Source: a virus. Taken from it: a stretch of 55,199 nt of DNA. The position numbers were made by a program, and so were the translations under genes. A model generated the notes under the pieces. The model searched no databases. It saw only the letters and a program-made list of their open reading frames with translations, and was not told the DNA's origin. The stretch covers positions 1-55,199 of the IMG/VR virus record IMGVR_UViG_3300020445_001189. One strand, 5' to 3'. This document shows positions 2,110 to 37,839 of the stretch, piece after piece. How positions within the stretch are numbered: position 1 is the first letter of the stretch; every line of letters begins with the position of its first letter.

Positions 2110-2647
2110 ACTCGCCTACGTTTTCCCAAGGATAAACAAGCCAACAATCTTCTTCAGCTTTATTAACTTCATCACAACTGTAAGTTACTCCATCAAACTC
2201 ACTAGCTAAATTTTCAGTTAGTACTGCAAACTTAACATTATGTCCCCAAGTCCTTGCCCACTTCTCAGGATCGTTATGTCGTGATTCCCAATCGTTCTTA
2301 ATCCAATTAAATGTAGCACCAGTATCATTGATGTCATCTACAATTAAAATCTTTTTGCTAGTTGGACTACCTGTTGCTATTTTACCATCTAAGATACCAA
2401 ATGCATCATCAGACATCCAATCAACACTATCTCCTGCTCTACCTGATTCGTTATCACGTAGACTTACTTTAATAGCTTCACAACGTATGCCAGTCATATT
2501 ACTAATAATAGTTGCTGGAATATTGCCTCCTCTAGTAATACCTACAATGTAGTCAGGTCTCCAATAGTCAGCATACATATCGTTTACAATGCTTACACAC
2601 ATCTTTTCTACGTCCGACCAACTATAGAACTTTTTCTTAATTTTCAT
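2099..2647 (-). CDS. phosphoribosyltransferase
   Basis: This 182-residue protein is a type I PRPP-dependent phosphoribosyltransferase. The PRPP-binding motif is ILIVDDINDTGAT in the middle of the chain, and an earlier VGITRGGNIPA segment matches the family's flexible-loop strand. The layout is closest to xanthine/guanine or hypoxanthine salvage enzymes, but the base cannot be read from sequence. I place the start at 2647 (MKIKKKF) because AGGAG lies 5 nt upstream; nine further in-frame codons upstream lack such a site. It overlaps the double oxygenase gene by 11 nt. A role in purine or 7-deazapurine salvage would fit the transglycosylase further downstream, but that is inference. Confidence 0.85.
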   Translation of the reverse strand: MKIKKKFYSWSDVEKMCVSIVNDMYADYWRPDYIVGITRGGNIPATIISNMTGIRCEAIKVSLRDNESGRAGDSVDWMSDDAFGILDGKIATGSPTSKKILIVDDINDTGATFNWIKNDWESRHNDPEKWARTWGHNVKFAVLTENLASEFDGVTYSCDEVNKAEEDCWLVYPWENVGEYGG

Positions 2648-3818
2648 TATTGCTCCTAATATTAAAGTTTCCACTAATAGAATACCTATCAGTATCTGTT
2701 ATATTTTTCCCAGTATAATGAGAAACCCTGGAATCGAATACTAAAAGCATACCAGCTTTAGGCTGAATAACTTTTTCAAAGCGAGGCATATCATTTACAA
2801 AAACTGTAAAATGTAAGTCACCTTGACCATCTTTGTGTTCAGGATAATACACAAAAGAATATAAACTGTTTGTATGACTGTGAAAGGCAGTACTGCCATT
2901 CGGTTCAGTCTTATGTGTCCAGATACCCGTCAGCTCGACGTTTTGTTTTGCATACGCCATAACTGATCTCTCTACTTCCCCCATGAAGTGCATACAGGTA
3001 TCTGAACCGGGGAACTTAATGTCTTCATAGTGGGTATCTTCAGGGTTAGCGTCAATTCTTTCTTGATGTTGTGTAATGTCATTCATTAACAAATCGTTAT
3101 TAACATTAGATAGATTTGTTTCATATACATCAATACTTGCAATATTATGTTTGATATCTGTAACTGGCAAAGGTGGTACATATTCTTGATGCCATGGATA
3201 AGTCTTTTCATCACCCATAACAATTCCGCCTTCTCCTTTGCCGTGTTTTTCTTTTAAAAATTTAATAAATTTAAATGTTGGTGTAAACCTATGAGTATTT
3301 CTCAAAGGTGTTGCAGTATGTAATATGTTACTTTTCCATAGTATCATTCTGCCTGGAATAGGTGGAATAGCAATTATTTCTGGAAAGTCATCTCCTCCAT
3401 CTGTATTTGCTCCTTGTCTTAAGTTTGTAATAAACTTTGTTTCTCCACCGTCATTAATATCCCAATTATTATTTGCATAAAACATAAATGTCCAGGCTTC
3501 GTCACTTTCATCATCAACGTGATAATGAGCTGTTTCCTTAGGAGCAAATATATTTGCCGCACTTCTTTTTAAAATACAACCATGTGTTTGTGGTAAGTAT
3601 TCTTCGCAAACTTTCCATAATGCATGAAAAGTTTTTGTATTCGTGTATTCACCTGTTGCCATTCCTGTTGGCGGTAAATCTTTGTCGTCTACTTCACCAT
3701 ATAGATAAGGCCAACTTTGTACATCTTGTACAAGTTCATTAAGCTCTGGTGGGCTAAAATAATTATCTATGATAATCATATCGCCATTTAGCTTTTGTGT
3801 TATCTTAGGTGTAGTCAT
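2637..3818 (-). CDS. 2OG-Fe(II) oxygenase, two-domain
   Basis: This 393-residue protein appears to hold two double-stranded beta-helix oxygenase domains. The first (about residues 1-190) has HYHVDD as an HxD-type metal motif and a later ILHTATPLRNTHRFT segment with the distal histidine and the arginine that binds 2-oxoglutarate. The second (about 265-393) has FHSHTNSLYSFVYYP and a C-terminal VSHYTGKN...DRYSISGNFN block, typical of the short phage oxygenase family also seen at 7010-7594. Substrates are unknown. It overlaps genes on both sides by 11-14 nt. The fusion of two related domains is read from motifs. Confidence 0.8.
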   Translation of the reverse strand: MTTPKITQKLNGDMIIIDNYFSPPELNELVQDVQSWPYLYGEVDDKDLPPTGMATGEYTNTKTFHALWKVCEEYLPQTHGCILKRSAANIFAPKETAHYHVDDESDEAWTFMFYANNNWDINDGGETKFITNLRQGANTDGGDDFPEIIAIPPIPGRMILWKSNILHTATPLRNTHRFTPTFKFIKFLKEKHGKGEGGIVMGDEKTYPWHQEYVPPLPVTDIKHNIASIDVYETNLSNVNNDLLMNDITQHQERIDANPEDTHYEDIKFPGSDTCMHFMGEVERSVMAYAKQNVELTGIWTHKTEPNGSTAFHSHTNSLYSFVYYPEHKDGQGDLHFTVFVNDMPRFEKVIQPKAGMLLVFDSRVSHYTGKNITDTDRYSISGNFNIRSNNEN

Positions 3819-4287
3819 CTTGTTTCTTATCTTTCAAATAGGCTTCGTGGTGTATCCAACGAAAACCTTGGTTATATACGTGTCGCATAAATCCCCATTC
3901 TTTAGATTTCTTACCCATATAGAATAAACTCCAACACGGTATCTCTTTTCCATTTTCATCCTTTTCTAATTCTAACCAATGCAAATCATCTGCCTTTCTA
4001 AAACGTATTGTACCTGGTCCCCACCATTTTTTAGTAGATCCAACTACATAACCTTCTTGTGAACGAATTGGAATATGCTCCCAATATCCACCTTTAATAA
4101 TAAGTGTTCCCCAAGACCAAGGATGATCGTGAAGTGTTGGTTCATCACTTACTAATATTTTATGCAAAGTTATGTTAAAAGGAAACCAAGAACGGTCCTT
4201 AAGAAAGATGTAATAACGAACTAGATAAGGTATTTTACCATCTCTATCGTATATAGTTCTTTTTCTATTCTTAAAAATTGATATCAT
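3805..4287 (-). CDS. cupin-like phage protein
   Basis: This is a 160-residue protein with a LHDHPWSWGTLIIKGGYWEH segment, the cupin-type pattern of spaced histidines followed by a glycine turn. A second block, HWLELEKDENGKEIPCWSLF, supplies the other half of the barrel. A metal-binding beta-barrel with an unknown small-molecule substrate is likely. I chose the ATG at 4287, preceded by GGAGAAGAAG; an ATG 30 nt upstream is possible but lacks a ribosome-binding site. The neighbours are an oxygenase and a glycosyltransferase. Confidence 0.65.
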   Translation of the reverse strand: MISIFKNRKRTIYDRDGKIPYLVRYYIFLKDRSWFPFNITLHKILVSDEPTLHDHPWSWGTLIIKGGYWEHIPIRSQEGYVVGSTKKWWGPGTIRFRKADDLHWLELEKDENGKEIPCWSLFYMGKKSKEWGFMRHVYNQGFRWIHHEAYLKDKKQDDYT

Positions 4288-4726
4288 TATCGTTCTTCTT
4301 CTCCATAGCATAATCATCTTTACATAGATTATAAACTTCTAAAAATCTTAAGTATTGCAATTTTAATGCAGGATACTTTTCAATCATATCTTCAATTTTA
4401 TATTCTGATGGCCATTTGTCTGTACCATCTAAACCTGTGTCCCAAGTATCATTCATAGTATCAAATGTTACTGTACCTAAATTAGTATCAGTATAAGATA
4501 CTCCTGAAAAAGTAGGTGCAGTACCTGAACCACCTTGTACTATACCGCCAACTGTTTCTCCACCTGCATAACTATATTCTATGTCTGGTGCTTCTATACA
4601 AGGGTAAGCATGACCAGGACTATCTGGATCAGGACCACTAACCGTAACTGTTTGATTACCAACTGTAATTTTAAAGTCGTCTGATTTTAATTCGCCAGTT
4701 ATACTTTTATCATCATCAGGATTCAT
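4271..4726 (-). CDS. hypothetical protein, 151 aa
   Basis: No known domain is recognised. The first 100 residues are Gly/Thr/Ser/Asp-rich with short beta-like repeats and no predicted membrane segment. The C-terminal 45 residues look helical (IEDMIEKYPALKLQYLRFL). It overlaps the glycosyltransferase gene by 11 nt upstream and the cupin-like gene downstream, so it is co-translated with them. Confidence 0.65.
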   Translation of the reverse strand: MNPDDDKSITGELKSDDFKITVGNQTVTVSGPDPDSPGHAYPCIEAPDIEYSYAGGETVGGIVQGGSGTAPTFSGVSYTDTNLGTVTFDTMNDTWDTGLDGTDKWPSEYKIEDMIEKYPALKLQYLRFLEVYNLCKDDYAMEKKNDNDINF

Positions 4727-5789
4727 TACTCAATGCTCCATAAAGTTTTTCACCACTAAAGAAGTCTGCTTGAAGTTTTACAACTTGTTTTCTTAAAGCA
4801 GGAAGATATGTGTCGTAGTTTTCCATATAGTCTTTAATTTTGTTTATTAACAAAACTCTATTATGTTCATAACTACTAAAACTTTCAGTCCATTCACTTG
4901 GATACTTAAATTCATCTAACGCCATTTCTTTATAGCTTAATCTATCTGGAACCATTGGTAATGTATCTACTAAAGCACCTTCGTACCAACTAATACCTAG
5001 TGTTTCTTGTAAGTTAGCACTAAACACTAGCTTTGCTCTACCTAGTAGATTGTGATATTCAATTTTAGTTAAATCTTGTTCTTGACATACAATTAATTCG
5101 TAGTCAGGTAAATGTGTTCTTAAATCTCTAAATATATCTGGTTGTTTCTCAGGAGCAATCCTATGTGGAAATAATATAACGTTTTCCTTAGGCATATTCC
5201 TATAACTATCTAAACTATTCTTTAGATACTCCATAGGCCAACCAACACGTTGTACTTTAGTTTTATCTGTTGTAAGTCCTACGTAGTTGCCTACTTCTTT
5301 AAATGCATCTACAAATATGTTTATATGAAAGTCACTTGCAAAGAAGTTGTTATCATAACATTCAAACATAGAACGTTCTGCATTTCTAACCCAGGGTTTA
5401 TCACCTATTAGTCTGCCAAGAAAATCTTGCGGATCATAACTACCTGCGTGCCACAAACCACCAATGCGAATATTAACACCCAATAGTTCTGCCATATACC
5501 GTAGTTGAATAACTGTAGGGTTCCAGGCATCGGTGTAGAGAAAATAATCACCGTCTTTAATTTCTCCATTGCAGAACTTTTCTCCTATAATCTCTAACTG
5601 CTTACTCTTGTAAACATTAGTTCCGCCAAAGTTTAAAAAAGCACCAGGTGTAGTTGCTTGTGGAGTATCACCCCCACTTATAACTTCAACAGATTGATTA
5701 GTTGAACGTTTTAATTGCTTTGGAAGATAATCTTTCCATTGCTTTGTATAACGTGTATCAACTGCTTCAATGTCTACAATATATATCAA
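4716..5789 (-). CDS. GT-B glycosyltransferase (group 1-like)
   Basis: This 357-residue protein has the layout of a GT-B retaining glycosyltransferase. Around residues 203-215 ILFPHRIAPEKQP matches the start of the nucleotide-sugar domain, and ETLGISWYEGALVDTLPMVP near residue 263 is the donor-binding E-x7-E-type motif. The acceptor could be a modified base, a virion protein or a surface glycan. The start is a TTG at 5789 with AGGAG at good spacing, overlapping the upstream stop (TTGA). The nearby QueD-like and transglycosylase genes make DNA-base glycosylation worth testing. Confidence 0.8.
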   Translation of the reverse strand: MIYIVDIEAVDTRYTKQWKDYLPKQLKRSTNQSVEVISGGDTPQATTPGAFLNFGGTNVYKSKQLEIIGEKFCNGEIKDGDYFLYTDAWNPTVIQLRYMAELLGVNIRIGGLWHAGSYDPQDFLGRLIGDKPWVRNAERSMFECYDNNFFASDFHINIFVDAFKEVGNYVGLTTDKTKVQRVGWPMEYLKNSLDSYRNMPKENVILFPHRIAPEKQPDIFRDLRTHLPDYELIVCQEQDLTKIEYHNLLGRAKLVFSANLQETLGISWYEGALVDTLPMVPDRLSYKEMALDEFKYPSEWTESFSSYEHNRVLLINKIKDYMENYDTYLPALRKQVVKLQADFFSGEKLYGALSNES

Positions 5790-6001
5790 CTATGTCTCCT
5801 TTTCTTAAGACGTGCTAACCTTTTTTCACGTCTTTCTTTTCTTGCCTTAGCCGGATCAAGAAATGCTCGATACGACTTCGAATTTTTATTATACAGATCT
5901 CTTTCATTAAATCTGTATCCTTCGAACCTACAAAAATCACGAAACTTATCTAGGTCGTCAAAAATTTGAACGACTTCAGGGGTATCAGCAAAATAAGACA
6001 T
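5786..6001 (-). CDS. hypothetical protein, 71 aa, basic C-terminus
   Basis: This small protein has an acidic N-terminal half (SYFADTPEVVQIFDDLDKF) and a strongly basic C-terminal helix of Lys and Arg, which could bind nucleic acid. I recognise no domain. It overlaps the TTG start of the glycosyltransferase gene. The upstream gap of 16 nt to the QueD-like gene contains AGGAGG ahead of its ATG. Confidence 0.65.
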   Translation of the reverse strand: MSYFADTPEVVQIFDDLDKFRDFCRFEGYRFNERDLYNKNSKSYRAFLDPAKARKERREKRLARLKKRRHS

Positions 6002-6017
6002 TTAAAGTCCTCCTTCA

Positions 6018-6491
6018 TTATTTGCTATATTCGATGTGAGCACCATTCTCACCATCTTCTGAAACATCAATGTGAACTTCTCTACCTGGGTAACGTTTAG
6101 AAATAGTTTCATATAAATCGTCACTTATCATTTCACACGACTTATAATCAAGTTCTAAAGTTTTGTCATCATAGCATTTTTCCAACCATCTTTTAAATTG
6201 TATAAACTCTATATCACGATCATCGTGAAATACTTCTATAGCAACTTTAAAGTGGAAAATATGTCTATGCGGATAACCTAAAAAACTAACATCATATTCA
6301 TCACCTGTTGCTAGTTTAGGATCATCCAACGCCGCAGGGTATTTGTGTATACCTTCTTTTCTAAAAGTAACCCAAATCATTCTCTTTGCCGTCGTCATTA
6401 TTTGTCCTTCTCTTTCTTGTTTAAAATTCTTCATAATCATTTCATCAAAATAAATATGATCTTTTTCTTTTATTGTAGCATCACCTTCCAT
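6018..6491 (-). CDS. QueD/6-pyruvoyl-tetrahydropterin synthase-like T-fold protein
   Basis: The core has, in order: an early GIHKYP histidine, a PHRHIFHFKV segment corresponding to the HGHxYxV metal-binding strand, an aspartate-rich FIQFKRWL helix in the place of DFxxLK, YKSCEMISDDLYE in the place of PTxENLA, and HIDVSEDGENGAH in the place of the terminal VxVxET strand. QueD makes carboxy-tetrahydropterin on the way to preQ0. The match is remote but collinear. ATG 6491 has AGAGG and only a 1-nt gap from the previous stop; ATG 6398, with AAGGA upstream, gives the usual family length of about 126 residues and is a real alternative. It lies near a TGT-like gene. Confidence 0.55.
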   Translation of the reverse strand: MEGDATIKEKDHIYFDEMIMKNFKQEREGQIMTTAKRMIWVTFRKEGIHKYPAALDDPKLATGDEYDVSFLGYPHRHIFHFKVAIEVFHDDRDIEFIQFKRWLEKCYDDKTLELDYKSCEMISDDLYETISKRYPGREVHIDVSEDGENGAHIEYSK

Positions 6492-6492
6492 A

Positions 6493-7020
6493 TTAATCAA
6501 CCTCTTTTATTGGTGTATCTCTACCATATTCTTCCCAATTTGTAAATTGGGTCTCCAGTTTAAGATCCTTAACGTGATGGATCCAAACACCCTTATTGCT
6601 ATGTTTAAAATCGTTATCATCAATTTTAATACAAGCCTTATTATTCAATTTTTCTATATTGGGTACTTTAACACTAATCTGTGAAATAAAATTATCAAAA
6701 CGATTGTAATCAAAAGCAATTACGTGTTCATGATATTTGATATCATAGTCCAAAGTTACTAACCAACCTTCTTCCAATAATGGCATAATCATATCGTCCC
6801 AATCTTCTTTTTGATCATCATTTGTAGGATTGAAACTTTGATTAGCACCCAAATAAATGTGTTTACAATCATTCTCTCTTGCTTGGTCCATAACATCAAC
6901 TGACATTTGTGTACCTACAACAAACAATGTTCTTTCTAGATGTGCAGGAGTTTTCTCTACTTCGTTACCAACAAAGTATTCTACATTATCCTTTACACCA
7001 TTATCGTAATCACGTTTCAT
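6493..7020 (-). CDS. hypothetical protein, 175 aa
   Basis: I recognise no domain. The protein is acidic, with alternating strands and helices (TLFVVGTQMSVDVMDQAREN, later WLVTLDYDIKYHEHVIAFDY) suggesting an alpha/beta fold. It is placed immediately before the QueD-like gene with a 1-nt gap and overlaps the oxygenase gene upstream by 11 nt, so it may act in the same pathway. That link is positional only. Confidence 0.65.
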   Translation of the reverse strand: MKRDYDNGVKDNVEYFVGNEVEKTPAHLERTLFVVGTQMSVDVMDQARENDCKHIYLGANQSFNPTNDDQKEDWDDMIMPLLEEGWLVTLDYDIKYHEHVIAFDYNRFDNFISQISVKVPNIEKLNNKACIKIDDNDFKHSNKGVWIHHVKDLKLETQFTNWEEYGRDTPIKEVD

Positions 7021-7594
7021 TTATATCTCCGTTAAAAGCAATACTAATTCTATCTCTGCTACTTCTATTTGCATTTGCATTATGCAATAAGTAACTTGGA
7101 AAGCAAACTAGCTTACCTGTCTCTGGTTTAATTCTAAATCTTGTACTATTCCATTCATTAGGTTGTTTAATATATCTATACGGAACTGCATAATCATATA
7201 ACTGATGTGGACTAAACAAAGTTAGTTCTCCACAGTTATCATCTGCCTGTGCATAGTATACACAACTTAAAACATTTCTATCATGCATATGAACTTGATT
7301 AATGTTAGTTGTTGCACCTTGTGGATAGTTAATATTAATCCATTCGTTTTTAATACTAATAGGACAATTAATATGGTAGTATTCTTTTTCTACCTTTGTC
7401 ATCATTTCTTGTACTTTAGTTTTTAATTCAGTAAAACGATCATCTTCGATACGCCAATCACTTTGCCAGCCACCTTCTTGCTCACCCCAAATTATTTCCT
7501 TTTTCATATTATAACAAGCCTCTACAATAGTTTTGTTATCTATGTCAAGATACTCTTCTACTAAAAGAGTTGGAAATAACGAAGTTGTTTGCAT
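7010..7594 (-). CDS. 2OG-Fe(II) oxygenase, short phage type
   Basis: This 194-residue single-domain oxygenase matches the 2OG-Fe(II) oxygenase family often annotated in marine T4-like phages. Residues 102-114 read HMHDRNVLSCVYY, the metal-binding strand, and residues 162-187 carry the FPSYLLH distal histidine followed by the DRISIAFN arginine strand. It lies between the transglycosylase-like gene and the QueD-like gene, a position that would suit hydroxylation of a modified base, but these enzymes may also act on proteins or lipids. The function is unproven. Confidence 0.85.
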   Translation of the reverse strand: MQTTSLFPTLLVEEYLDIDNKTIVEACYNMKKEIIWGEQEGGWQSDWRIEDDRFTELKTKVQEMMTKVEKEYYHINCPISIKNEWININYPQGATTNINQVHMHDRNVLSCVYYAQADDNCGELTLFSPHQLYDYAVPYRYIKQPNEWNSTRFRIKPETGKLVCFPSYLLHNANANRSSRDRISIAFNGDINET

Positions 7595-7788
7595 TACATT
7601 CTCGCTAACTTATCTTTGATTGCTAATTTAATTTTCTTTATTCTTTGTAATACTTCTTTACTTTCCCATGATCTATTTGTTTTACGTTCTTCAGTCATTT
7701 CAGAAGTTTTACTATCGTACCACTTGTGATCATATTCAAGTTTCTTTTTAGCTCTACTTGGTTTCTTTATTTTTTTAGCTTTGTTCAT
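7594..7788 (-). CDS. hypothetical basic protein, 64 aa
   Basis: This small, very lysine/arginine-rich protein is likely helical throughout and could bind nucleic acid. No family is recognised. It overlaps the 3' end of the transglycosylase-like gene by 14 nt and touches the oxygenase start downstream, so it is translationally coupled to both. Confidence 0.6.
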   Translation of the reverse strand: MNKAKKIKKPSRAKKKLEYDHKWYDSKTSEMTEERKTNRSWESKEVLQRIKKIKLAIKDKLARM

Positions 7789-9313
7789 TTTCTAAATCCT
7801 CCAACTTACTGTCATCTAAATCCTCAACTTCAGTTTCTTCAGCAACAGGAACACTATCAGCATCATCAAATAAATTATTAAATTGTGTTTGTGCATTAAC
7901 AATTCTTTTACCTGTGTTACCTCTTGTTCCAATGATAGTATCCCAGAATCTTGAAAACTCTGCAATAATCATATTTGCTTTATCTCTATCATCTGTTGCA
8001 AAAATGGCATCAATTACATCTCTAAAATATAACCTGTCAAATTTTTCTTGTACTAACATATTAGGATAAACACCTGCGTCATATTGTCTATTAGCTTCTT
8101 GTACTGCATTAATATGACTCCATACGTTATGTGCCATCTGTATAGCATAACTAAAGCTATCCCAACTTGTTTTACCTTCTTTACCTATTTTATTTAGGTC
8201 TCCTGGAGCATATATGCATATATCTTTTACTGTTAATCCTTTACTTACAGGACTATCTGTAAAGTTTTTAAATATACCATCTGCTAATACTCCATCTCTA
8301 AAGTTACGTGTATCTTGTGCATACTTCTTATCGTCTATGCTAGGTACCATTCGATACACCCATTTAGTTCTATCTACTGTTTCTGTTTGAATATAAAGTT
8401 GTCCATTAGCAGTTGCTAAAAACGGACTTGCACAATCAAATGTTACAGTAAAGTTTGGATTGTGATACTTACGAACTGCTCTTTGAATGTCAGTTAATAG
8501 TACTGCCCACTCTAGTTTACTTGTTCCTAAGAAGTGCATAAAGTCATGCAATCCTTTTTCTAACAATCCATCAAAACGTAGTGCAACTAATCTTTTCAAT
8601 ATTAAGTGAATGTCGCACATATTCTGGCCACCCATTGACCAACCATTAAAGTGATCTGTATATTTCTTAGGATCACAATAGTCTTTCATTTGCTGATACC
8701 AATCTTCTGCGTCAGCATGGTTTTCACCTTGTAATACATTTAAGAATTTACAATTACCATTTCTATTTTTCATAAAGTAATCGTTATTAATTCTTGTAGC
8801 ATTTACGGCATCCTGGTAATTGTCAATACCCGTTGCTTTTGCACCAGCAGGGGATCTTGCCACCCAGGCAGGAATATCAAGTATCATTCCATAGTCCATA
8901 TAAGCATCCATCCACGTAAGGACTTGTTCACGTTTCTTTTTAGCTTTAGGACAATTAGGATCTTTCCAATCACCTTCCCATACACCCTTACCAATCTGGA
9001 AACCACCTGAGTCTCCTAGTAACCAAGAATTGTTACGATCCCTATTACGAACCATATCTTCTTTGGGTGCATTTTTATTAACGTCTAACTCGGCGTGTCC
9101 TGCCGAATATAGACTCCAGTGATAGTTGAACATACTAGCTTTAGGTTCAAGCCAGTTTAAACTTTCTACTTCTGTTGGAAAGTTCTTAGGTATTCTACTT
9201 TTTTCAACATATTCCTCATACCTTTGTTTACCTACAAACGTAGCGAAGAATCCACTAATGGCAGGGAGAAATACTGCATAGTCTTTTTGTGCATTAGTTA
9301 GATCTGTATTCAC
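7775..9313 (-). CDS. tRNA-guanine transglycosylase-like protein, DpdA candidate
   Basis: This 512-residue protein carries the motif series of the TGT superfamily in order: WLLGDSGGFQIG (98-108, general-acid Asp101), NVLQGE (192-197), WSMGGQ (225-230), HFLGTSKLEW (260-269, the place of the MGVGTP loop) and TFDCASP (291-297, nucleophile Asp293). TGT enzymes exchange guanine for a 7-deazaguanine in tRNA; phage and bacterial DpdA relatives do this in DNA. The length and the lack of a visible C-terminal zinc site argue against ordinary tRNA Tgt and favour a DpdA-like role. An acidic tail ends the protein. The start is GTG at 9313 with AGGAG upstream. A QueD-like gene lies 1.3 kb downstream. Confidence 0.8.
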   Translation of the reverse strand: MNTDLTNAQKDYAVFLPAISGFFATFVGKQRYEEYVEKSRIPKNFPTEVESLNWLEPKASMFNYHWSLYSAGHAELDVNKNAPKEDMVRNRDRNNSWLLGDSGGFQIGKGVWEGDWKDPNCPKAKKKREQVLTWMDAYMDYGMILDIPAWVARSPAGAKATGIDNYQDAVNATRINNDYFMKNRNGNCKFLNVLQGENHADAEDWYQQMKDYCDPKKYTDHFNGWSMGGQNMCDIHLILKRLVALRFDGLLEKGLHDFMHFLGTSKLEWAVLLTDIQRAVRKYHNPNFTVTFDCASPFLATANGQLYIQTETVDRTKWVYRMVPSIDDKKYAQDTRNFRDGVLADGIFKNFTDSPVSKGLTVKDICIYAPGDLNKIGKEGKTSWDSFSYAIQMAHNVWSHINAVQEANRQYDAGVYPNMLVQEKFDRLYFRDVIDAIFATDDRDKANMIIAEFSRFWDTIIGTRGNTGKRIVNAQTQFNNLFDDADSVPVAEETEVEDLDDSKLEDLENEQS

Positions 9314-15607: not shown

Positions 15608-15637
15608 ATTATACACTCTTTGCCTGCGGTCTGTCAA
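15608..15637 (-). promoter_or_regulatory. sigma70-like promoter for the DsbA-like operon
   Basis: The minus strand reads TTGACA (15637-15632), an 18-nt spacer, then TATAAT (15613-15608). The TAA of the upstream oxygenase gene (15611-15609) is part of the -10 hexamer. The leader to ATG 15583 is about 18 nt and contains AGGAG. Confidence 0.7.
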
Positions 15638-16154
15638 TAGAAATATTGCCGGCAATTACAATTCTTTCTTTATCCAATTTTTGTTCTGGTACTCCGTGTG
15701 TTACCCAACCTGGAAATACAATCATTAATCCTGGATTTGGATATATTGCATTACCGCTAGTTGGAAATACTAATGGAGCATCATCTGGTGTTGCGTCTAC
15801 GTAGTAAACGAAACTCCACGTGGCCGGGTGATGTGCGTGTGCATTTGTGCTATCACCTTTCCTATAAACTGCTCCCCAGCAATCTGTAGGATAATATCTG
15901 CCCAATTCTTTATGTGCTAGACCACCTTCGATACATTCGATAGCAAAATTAACAATCTTTTCAAAATCAACATCTTCAAACATAGACCATTTAGTCATAT
16001 CAGCTTGAACATTAGTTTTTCGAAACTGTTGATCTCCTTCAGCTTTTATTTTGTTTGCAAGAATTGGATTCAAACTTTCTGCATCAGGATAGACAGCAGT
16101 AAATACGTCTGCTTTTTCTTTGAATTCTAAATTTTGTACGTTAGGCTCTAACAT
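15609..16154 (-). CDS. 2OG-Fe(II) oxygenase
   Basis: This 181-residue oxygenase has NAHAHHPATWSFVYYVD (about 104-120) as the metal-binding strand, and FPGWVTHGVPEQKLDKERIV (147-166) with the distal His153 and Arg164 for 2-oxoglutarate. The substrate is unknown. No Shine-Dalgarno is visible before the ATG; instead ATTAAATA ends exactly 5 nt upstream, so the transcript may be leaderless. The last codon lies inside a promoter for the next operon. Confidence 0.85.
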   Translation of the reverse strand: MLEPNVQNLEFKEKADVFTAVYPDAESLNPILANKIKAEGDQQFRKTNVQADMTKWSMFEDVDFEKIVNFAIECIEGGLAHKELGRYYPTDCWGAVYRKGDSTNAHAHHPATWSFVYYVDATPDDAPLVFPTSGNAIYPNPGLMIVFPGWVTHGVPEQKLDKERIVIAGNISIDRPQAKSV

Positions 16155-36443: not shown

Positions 36444-36991
36444 GCATATAATCCACTAAAAAGGAAAGATACACTAAAACGGGGAGTTACTTCTTTTGGT
36501 TTAATTTCTCTATGTAATGTTCGAGCGGGAAAGGCCACACATCTACCTGGTTTAAATTCTACAGTTTCAAAAACAGTTTTACCATCTCTTTGATAGAATT
36601 CTATTGGACTATCACCTTGTAACATATAATAGAATACCCAATTAGACTTGTCAGAATAAACCATTTTACCTGAGCCGTCATGATCATAAGGTTCGTCCAT
36701 TGCAATCATATCAGGAAAGTGTTCTTCTGTTGACATATTTGTTTGTACATTTAATAAAGTTAAGAATCCTGCTTTTCCAAATATAGGAGGATTAATCTTT
36801 GCTTTTACATCATGACGTCTATAGTTAAATGCACACCATATAGCTTTTAATTCCCAAGGTAACTCGTTTAAATCGTGCCAAGTAGTATTAAATCCTTTTT
36901 GACTAAAAACAATTTTTTGATGTGGTAAAGCCGCCTCACATTGTTCACGTAACCAAACAGGTACAATATCGTCTATTACTATTATACTCAC
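36440..36991 (-). CDS. 2OG-Fe(II) oxygenase-like protein, 183 aa
   Basis: This protein is a paralogue of its upstream neighbour: both start with a hydrophobic strand then DDIVPxWL, share a PWxLxAIWxAF segment and end with a GRCxxFPxxxxH, PKxVxPRxxxxxxFSG block. Here the metal motif is less clear (EEHFPD near 95-100), with distal His in RTLHREIKPKEVTPRF. The start is GTG 36991, overlapping the upstream TGA. It may have a divergent active site. Confidence 0.7.
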   Translation of the reverse strand: MSIIVIDDIVPVWLREQCEAALPHQKIVFSQKGFNTTWHDLNELPWELKAIWCAFNYRRHDVKAKINPPIFGKAGFLTLLNVQTNMSTEEHFPDMIAMDEPYDHDGSGKMVYSDKSNWVFYYMLQGDSPIEFYQRDGKTVFETVEFKPGRCVAFPARTLHREIKPKEVTPRFSVSFLFSGLYA

Positions 36992-37839
36992 TTATGTCTC
37001 CTGTCTTGTTGCATTCCATGACTACCATGATCCATACCTGGTGCAATAGCTTGTTCTTGAATAGCTTGTTGTTCTTTTTTAAATATAGGCATAATAACTT
37101 GTCTGTCTCTTGCAAACTTAGAAGTTTTTCCACTAAAAATATAACCTATTGTTACTCTAGGACTTACTACTTTAGGTGGTAAACCTTGGTGTATAAACTT
37201 ACTAGGAAATACTATACATCTTCCATCTTTATAATCTACTGAATGCCATTTATAACTATCTAACTCACCTTCGTGATTACTAAAATCATCTTCGTACCAC
37301 GTTTCGTCTTTTGTTCTCATTTCGCCTTTTGCTTTTGCACGTTCTTTTGTCTTACGCATTTCTTCTTCTACTTCTTCTTGCGTAGCTTTTCCTTTACCAA
37401 CTGCATCAGCCAACTCTGCAATACGTGGATTAATATGTTCTGGGTTATTACTCCAGAAGTCCATACCAGTATCTCCACATACAGAATAAACCATTGTATA
37501 TGCTTCTGTGCCGTCATGAATATCTACATGAAGACCTCCTATATGGTCCTTAGTCGTCAAGTTAATTTGAATCTGGTTAAGCTGTATGTCACCAACATCG
37601 GGATCGATCTGGTGTTTTTGTTCTTCAAACGCCATCCATATTGCACGTAGTACCCATGGTGCGTCTTCTATTTCTTCGTGTTTCCATTGATCGCTAAAGA
37701 ACTGATAACCTTGTGAAGGTCCTAATCCTCTATGTCCCCAATGTAGTGGAAGGTATGGTACTGTTTCTACTGCTTGTTGATGTAACCATTGCGGTATAAC
37801 ATCATCTAGTACTTTGATTTTTTCTAATTCGAGGTCCAT
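36988..37839 (-). CDS. 2OG-Fe(II) oxygenase-like protein with charged insert, 283 aa
   Basis: The catalytic elements are GLHVDIHDG (HxD near residues 103-105), KFIHQGLPPKVVSPRV (distal His and Arg) and a GRCIVFPS strand. Between them lies a charged insert of about 50 residues (VEEEMRKTKERAKAKGEM), and the C-terminus adds a His/Gln-rich tail (MDHGSHGMQQ). It is the better preserved member of a tandem pair. ATTAAATA ends exactly 5 nt before the ATG, with no clear Shine-Dalgarno. Confidence 0.75.
   Translation of the reverse strand: MDLELEKIKVLDDVIPQWLHQQAVETVPYLPLHWGHRGLGPSQGYQFFSDQWKHEEIEDAPWVLRAIWMAFEEQKHQIDPDVGDIQLNQIQINLTTKDHIGGLHVDIHDGTEAYTMVYSVCGDTGMDFWSNNPEHINPRIAELADAVGKGKATQEEVEEEMRKTKERAKAKGEMRTKDETWYEDDFSNHEGELDSYKWHSVDYKDGRCIVFPSKFIHQGLPPKVVSPRVTIGYIFSGKTSKFARDRQVIMPIFKKEQQAIQEQAIAPGMDHGSHGMQQDRRHK

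Follow-up and report, generated by a model that had tools for sequence, protein, structure and literature searches.

Results

Gene content of the locus

The IMG/VR virus record IMGVR_UViG_3300020445_001189 is a fragment of 55,199 bases (hereafter the window) with the gene content of a T4-like phage, including a family-B DNA polymerase, sliding clamp, clamp loader and PhoH; no close DNA relative was found among cultured phages. Its minus strand encodes a putative DpdA-like DNA-guanine transglycosylase of 512 amino acids (aa; 7775–9313), a 2-oxoglutarate (2OG)-Fe(II) oxygenase (7010–7594), a conserved 175-aa protein without assigned function (u175; 6493–7020), a 160-aa T-fold protein of phrog_17812 (6018–6500), a conserved, small and basic protein of 71 aa (u71; 5786–6001) and, next to it, a candidate glycosyltransferase of 357 aa (4716–5789). 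The original prediction, made from the window alone, had correctly placed four of these open reading frames (ORFs), those of the DpdA-like, QueD-like, oxygenase and glycosyltransferase proteins, and proposed that their products insert a deazaguanine into DNA, hydroxylate it and glycosylate it. The data below suggest that the locus is likely to be a phage DNA-hypermodification module in which 7-carboxy-7-deazaguanine (CDG) is made, processed by the T-fold protein, inserted by the DpdA-like enzyme and decorated with a sugar by the glycosyltransferase.

The DpdA-like transglycosylase

Single-sequence searches of Pfam, PHROG, NCBIfam and the PDB with the 512-aa protein returned no match, and kallikrein, the sole result of a PDB profile search, was judged a chance match. 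The AlphaFold2 model of the protein (predicted local distance difference test, pLDDT, 88.6; predicted template-modelling score, pTM, 0.87) retrieved bacterial, human and archaeal tRNA-guanine transglycosylases (TGTs) as all 12 of its top Foldseek matches in the PDB (E 2e-7 to 4e-5). Because these top structural matches are TGTs rather than members of another fold, the structural check proposed with the original prediction came out in its favour. D101 (in DSGGFQ) and D293 (in FDCASP) are invariant in an alignment of 34 relatives, and the FDCASP motif aligns with FDCVMP of Escherichia coli Tgt. Profile comparison by hhalign with a set of DpdA2 sequences, including that of Vibrio phage nt-1, gave 97.8% (E 1e-12, 196 columns) with both catalytic motifs in register, shuffled controls reaching at most 0.4%. 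The corresponding value for E. coli Tgt was 88.9%, and no match was detectable with DpdA1 of Enterobacteria phage 9g. The window DpdA profile also matches DpdA2 of Acidovorax phage ACP17 directly (E 6e-5); it had no match in Campylobacter phage CP220, which we take to be a DpdA3 phage and whose DpdA3 gene could not be pinpointed near FolE. The cysteines of the tRNA-TGT zinc site (CxCxxC...H) are not among the invariant columns of the family alignment, and the window-type enzyme carries a long C-terminal extension. More than 590 relatives of the 512-aa protein were found in IMG/VR; a scan of the same database with the PA5oct DpdA found nothing. By fold and profile, the 512-aa protein is thus a TGT-superfamily transglycosylase of DpdA-like type with both catalytic aspartates, as originally proposed for 7775–9313, and window-type DpdA is a sequence family separate from both DpdA1 (9g) and DpdA2.

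The T-fold protein and the glycosyltransferase

The product of 6018–6500 was assigned to phrog_17812 (E 1e-35), its T-fold homology beginning at an ATG at 6398, which gives a protein of 126 aa. Alignment by hhalign of 69 phrog_17812 members with 25 PTPS/QueD sequences gave 81% (E 1e-5, 105 columns; shuffled controls at most 2%), and a PDB sequence search with the T-fold profile returned chance matches only. The zinc-binding residues H18, H44 and H46 and the pterin-anchoring E114 are invariant in the family. The catalytic cysteine that precedes HxH in QueD and the histidine of the LDH motif are absent, and invariant instead are H58, R61, E64-F65 and S87-C88-E89. It is because the cysteine and the LDH motif are lacking that the protein was not filed as QueD. 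A separate canonical PTPS/QueD occurs in 9/20 and 15/20 of the records searched (longer relatives and cultured carriers), and its presence in most longer relatives also told against the assignment. The 160-aa protein is therefore best described as a QueD paralogue whose active site differs from that of QueD; the original label of a QueD-like T-fold protein is borne out for the T-fold relationship, zinc triad and glutamate, but not for QueD itself. Gp176 of Vibrio phage Bakedbeans, at first suspected to fuse a T-fold with DpdA, proved not to do so, as its N-terminal part is not DpdA-like.

The AlphaFold2 model of the 357-aa protein (pLDDT 88.5) has BshA, MshA and PglA as its top Foldseek matches (E 6e-9, template-modelling score about 0.6). 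The glutamates of the EX7E motif (E262/E270) and the diphosphate-binding R210 and K215 are invariant in 28 sequences. PF00534 is matched by 14 of the 28 relatives (best E 1.5e-5) and, at E 8e-12, by the homologue from Xanthomonas phage X1; the Pfam search of the window protein itself gave no PF00534 match, and a PDB sequence search with the family profile yielded chance matches only. Fold, motif and relatives point to a GT4-type glycosyltransferase (GT-B, retaining by fold class) with an intact EX7E motif, consistent with the GT-B enzyme originally predicted at 4716–5789.

Linkage and distribution of the module

Linkage was assessed with three baits, the window DpdA, the glycosyltransferase of Sinorhizobium phage Phosso and the T-fold protein of Rhizobium phage RHph_I1_18. 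With the DpdA bait, the order DpdA, u175, T-fold, u71, glycosyltransferase is preserved in 46/46 marine loci with enough sequence. Where 8 kb downstream were available, a phosphoribosyltransferase is encoded in 37/37 marine loci and FolE in 35/37; in the window this recurrent partner, of purine type (xanthine/guanine-like; PF00156, E 2e-8), lies on the minus strand at 2099–2674. The Phosso glycosyltransferase (∼49% identical to that of the window), used as the only bait, retrieved 72 contigs. The 17 non-redundant full loci among them contain the T-fold gene (17), DpdA (16), FolE (16), QueE (14), the phosphoribosyltransferase (13), u175 (14) and u71 (11), and in nearly all Phosso-bait loci the DpdA gene adjoins those of the sliding clamp and DNA polymerase. 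The T-fold bait returned DpdA in 31/31 and the glycosyltransferase in 29/31 full loci; the two loci that lack the glycosyltransferase carry a different type of DpdA, and the glycosyltransferase is present in every one of the 28 full loci with window-type DpdA. Five DpdA sequence types accompany the T-fold protein (window type, DpdA2, RHph type, Cellulophaga type and 9g type). The inserting enzyme has thus been swapped around a constant T-fold and glycosyltransferase, which argues for one pathway. As judged with all three baits, these genes form a module, and one wider than the original prediction envisaged, with u175, u71, the phosphoribosyltransferase, FolE and QueE as further members.

Cultured carriers comprise the PA5oct-like Pseudomonas phages including Paride, Phosso, ACP17, X1 and Synechococcus phage BUCT-ZZ01, and every one of them encodes both the T-fold protein and the glycosyltransferase. 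The u175 protein, which has no Pfam or PHROG match, is limited to carriers of the module and among reference phages was seen only in the PA5oct-like phages and ACP17. Carriers in genome collections include Magnetospirillum, Aurantimonas, Verrucomicrobia, Bacteroides and others; in part these may represent prophages, or viral contigs placed in the wrong bin.

Several of the bacterial loci have features of their own. A glycosyltransferase/T-fold/DpdA/PTPS cluster is conserved in several Magnetospirillum genomes (L188, L189, L190 and L193), and in M. aberrantis a tyrosine-recombinase-like ORF lies 4 kb from the cluster, which is possibly a mobile island. In Aurantimonas sp. VKM B-3413 an ORF with a weak Pfam match (E 7e-5) to Vut_1/YhhQ-type transporters (L191, 7390–7911) sits between the window-type DpdA and the T-fold and glycosyltransferase genes. 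The YhhQ type is a transporter of 7-deazaguanine precursors, and this weak match inside the locus ties the module to such precursors. In Amycolatopsis (L199, L200 and L206) and Streptomyces (L202 and L204) the T-fold gene adjoins PTPS and FolE and there is no glycosyltransferase; the Amycolatopsis loci additionally encode a 9g-type DpdA and QueE. One reading of these clusters is that they serve cellular DNA modification or the synthesis of a natural product.

Genes for precursor synthesis

FolE, QueE and QueC had been reported as missing from the window. This is literally true, but contig IMGVR_UViG_3300005404_000355, which overlaps the window at its left end (1998/2000 bases identical), encodes both FolE and QueE; counted in window coordinates, FolE occupies about −331 to −1020 and QueE about −1461 to −2330. 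The two genes thus lie ∼0.3 and ∼1.5 kb past the edge, both of them within 2.4 kb of it. In the records of relatives FolE was found in 17/20 and QueE in 14/20, and in BUCT-ZZ01 the phosphoribosyltransferase gene is next to QueE.

Canonical QueC, the third partner sought, turned up neither in the marine relatives nor in any T-fold phage searched, and the T-fold-bait loci did not yield it either (0/80); the search of the relatives and phages did detect it in its positive controls, namely the records of 9g and Vibrio 2.275.O and control genomes. QueF was likewise absent. Vibrio 2.275.O encodes a relative of the window DpdA together with QueC and a QueF-type protein, and neither the T-fold protein nor the glycosyltransferase was detected in it. 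As this phage has QueC without the T-fold protein and the T-fold phages lack QueC, the two appear to be mutually exclusive in this sample. C-terminal ‘QueC' matches in relatives were rejected as other PP-loop proteins (SGGxDSA, CxxCxxCxERxWGF). QueC-like PP-loop proteins with these motifs, of unassigned function, are encoded elsewhere in the genomes of L089, L090, L177 and L178, two of them side by side in L178.

Discussion

Proposed pathway and alternatives

Computation gave the folds, the motifs, the gene linkage and the lack of canonical QueC and QueF directly, and these results are probably best accounted for by the following route. FolE and QueE, encoded a short way beyond the window edge, together with a canonical QueD encoded elsewhere in the genome, would convert GTP into CDG. 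The base would stop short of preQ0 because there is no QueC, which the majority of known routes of this type employ, and no QueF. The T-fold protein, with its rebuilt active site, would then convert CDG into the base that is inserted; as the pterin-type site is retained and QueC is missing, the leading guess is a zinc-assisted decarboxylation of CDG to 7-deazaguanine. The DpdA-like transglycosylase would exchange the processed base for guanine in phage DNA, a step that is well supported, and the phosphoribosyltransferase would probably salvage the displaced guanine. Finally, the GT4 enzyme is proposed to glycosylate the modified base, most probably once this has been inserted. Each reaction is inferred, as are the sugar, its acceptor, the attachment atom and the sequence of the final two steps. 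With regard to the original pathway, insertion and glycosylation are retained on the strength of fold, motifs and linkage in many unrelated lineages, but hydroxylation is not.

The hydroxylation step depended on the oxygenase at 7010–7594, which is a genuine 2OG-Fe(II) enzyme, as predicted (TIGR02466, E 4e-22; PF13759), and is located between DpdA and the T-fold protein in the window. This position is occupied by the oxygenase in only 17/37 marine loci and in none of the 37 more distant full loci retrieved with the Phosso bait, so that it is missing there in over half of the close relatives and in all of the distant ones; the window, moreover, holds at least four oxygenase genes in all. The enzyme thus appears to be a passenger outside the module, and since it is not linked to the other genes a sequence of insertion, hydroxylation and glycosylation is very improbable. 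Nearly as improbable is that the transglycosylase acts on tRNA, in a queuosine-like modification, rather than on DNA. The TGT fold itself is compatible with such a role, but the closest profile family is DpdA2, in almost every locus the gene has those for DNA polymerase and the sliding clamp as neighbours, CxCxxC is missing from the invariant columns and the window, when searched for tRNA genes, proved to have none.

Two other explanations deserve more weight. The module may only insert an unglycosylated 7-deazaguanine (dCDG or dDG), with the glycosyltransferase directed at the host surface or a protein. Insertion does not need the glycosyltransferase, as the T-fold protein and DpdA occur without it in RHph_I1_18, Ahp1, Cellulophaga phages, loci L240 and L247 and the Amycolatopsis/Streptomyces clusters. 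We nevertheless regard a separate target as unlikely: the glycosyltransferase gene adjoins those of the T-fold protein and DpdA in many unrelated lineages, bacterial genomes included, it never fails to accompany window-type DpdA in full loci found with an independent bait, and in annotated phages it comes without lipopolysaccharide or capsule genes. Somewhat more plausible, though still a minority view, is an order in which the free base is the substrate of the T-fold protein or the glycosyltransferase, so that DpdA would insert a base already glycosylated. The long C-terminal extension of window-type DpdA would fit this order, as would the small acceptors that are glycosylated by BshA and MshA, the GT4 enzymes nearest in fold, and the ability of eukaryotic TGT to accept the bulky base queuine. 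Against it, base glycosylation in a known phage, T4, occurs on DNA.

Several observations weigh against the preferred route, in which CDG is processed, inserted and then glycosylated. If the T-fold protein only decarboxylates, the resulting 7-deazaguanine offers a GT4 enzyme no obvious acceptor atom, and the inserted base may therefore keep its carboxylate or gain another group. Four loci (L159, L160, L162 and L173) encode the glycosyltransferase and a diverged DpdA with no recognisable T-fold gene on the stretch; L159 and L160 also have PTPS, QueE, FolE and the phosphoribosyltransferase, and L160, where the T-fold gene is not nearby, points in the same direction, to a base that retains the carboxylate or another group. 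The QueC-like PP-loop proteins elsewhere in some relatives make an amide or other route possible, and QueC could be supplied by the host. Nucleoside data for any carrier were not found in the accessible literature.

Neighbouring genes

The window encodes further oxygenase-like proteins on its minus strand. The product of 2637–3818 is a tandem two-domain 2OG oxygenase, to the first half of which PHROGs gives the name ‘DNA endonuclease V', probably an annotation error for phrog_274; like the oxygenase of the locus, it is found in 0/37 Phosso-bait loci. Additional 2OG-Fe(II) oxygenase-like proteins are encoded at 15609–16154 and 36988–37839. A cupin-like protein of phrog_4786, called cysteine dioxygenase (3805–4317, minus strand), occurs in 44/46 marine loci and only 11/37 others. 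Between the exonuclease and sliding clamp genes lies a short NAD-dependent epimerase/dehydratase (PF01370; 10095–10826, minus strand), present in 37/46 marine loci, which could serve the supply of a nucleotide-sugar donor.

Relation to known systems and significance

The T4 alpha- and beta-glucosyltransferases are likewise phage enzymes that add sugar to a modified DNA base. They act on 5-hydroxymethylcytosine, in contrast to the route proposed here, and the window enzyme has its best fold matches in BshA and MshA of the GT4 type, the matches listed including no T4 enzyme. Work by Cui and colleagues from 2023 reportedly describes DpdL as a predicted CDG decarboxylase that yields dDG in phage DNA; such an activity would suit phrog_17812 and the missing QueC, and the family may correspond to DpdL. 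Enterobacteria phage 9g, with its preQ0/dG+ cluster (DpdA1, FolE, QueD, Gat-QueC and QueE), shares de novo synthesis of a 7-deazaguanine and its insertion into DNA, whereas its DpdA has no profile match to that of the window and its pathway is QueC-dependent and lacks the T-fold protein and glycosyltransferase. In Vibrio phage nt-1, Hutinet et al. define YP_008125322 as DpdA2 and the DNA was measured to contain dPreQ0, dADG and dG+ (PMC6884629). The dG+ pathway of nt-1 has in common with the module a TGT-superfamily transglycosylase (the profile match described above), FolE, PTPS and QueE. It differs in having QueC and an ArcS (PMC6884629); nt-1 is not among the phages matched with the T-fold protein or glycosyltransferase, and the window DpdA belongs to a separate sequence family. 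A precedent for this gene set is one sentence in Iyer et al. 2021, which refers to a ‘deazaguanine synthesis/incorporation system' in PA5oct (PMC7824862), one of the carriers named here; the passage in question makes no mention of a glycosyltransferase, of a paralogue with the T-fold, of the lack of QueC or of the occurrence in marine phages.

No report of glycosylated 7-deazaguanine in DNA was found in the literature searched, which did not cover subscription papers. On balance, the evidence slightly favours the broader view that phages (hundreds of them marine or freshwater, and cultured jumbo phages such as Paride and PA5oct) and some bacteria follow a QueC-independent route to glycosylated 7-deazaguanine in DNA, by means of a novel subfamily of DpdA, a QueD paralogue of new chemistry and a GT4 glycosyltransferase dedicated to the base. 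The cultured carriers (the Paride/PA5oct group, Phosso, ACP17, X1 and BUCT-ZZ01) make this model testable by mass spectrometry. If it is true, the product would be a class of hypermodified DNA purine found in none of the literature searched. Few defences of phages against restriction and CRISPR are as strong as bases that bear a sugar, and those known so far are mostly pyrimidines; a glycosylated deazapurine would be a new kind of sugar-bearing base. The route would also explain phrog_17812, phrog_10773 and window-type DpdA, families of so-far unassigned function, and would draw attention to new enzymes with uses in base editing and labelling.

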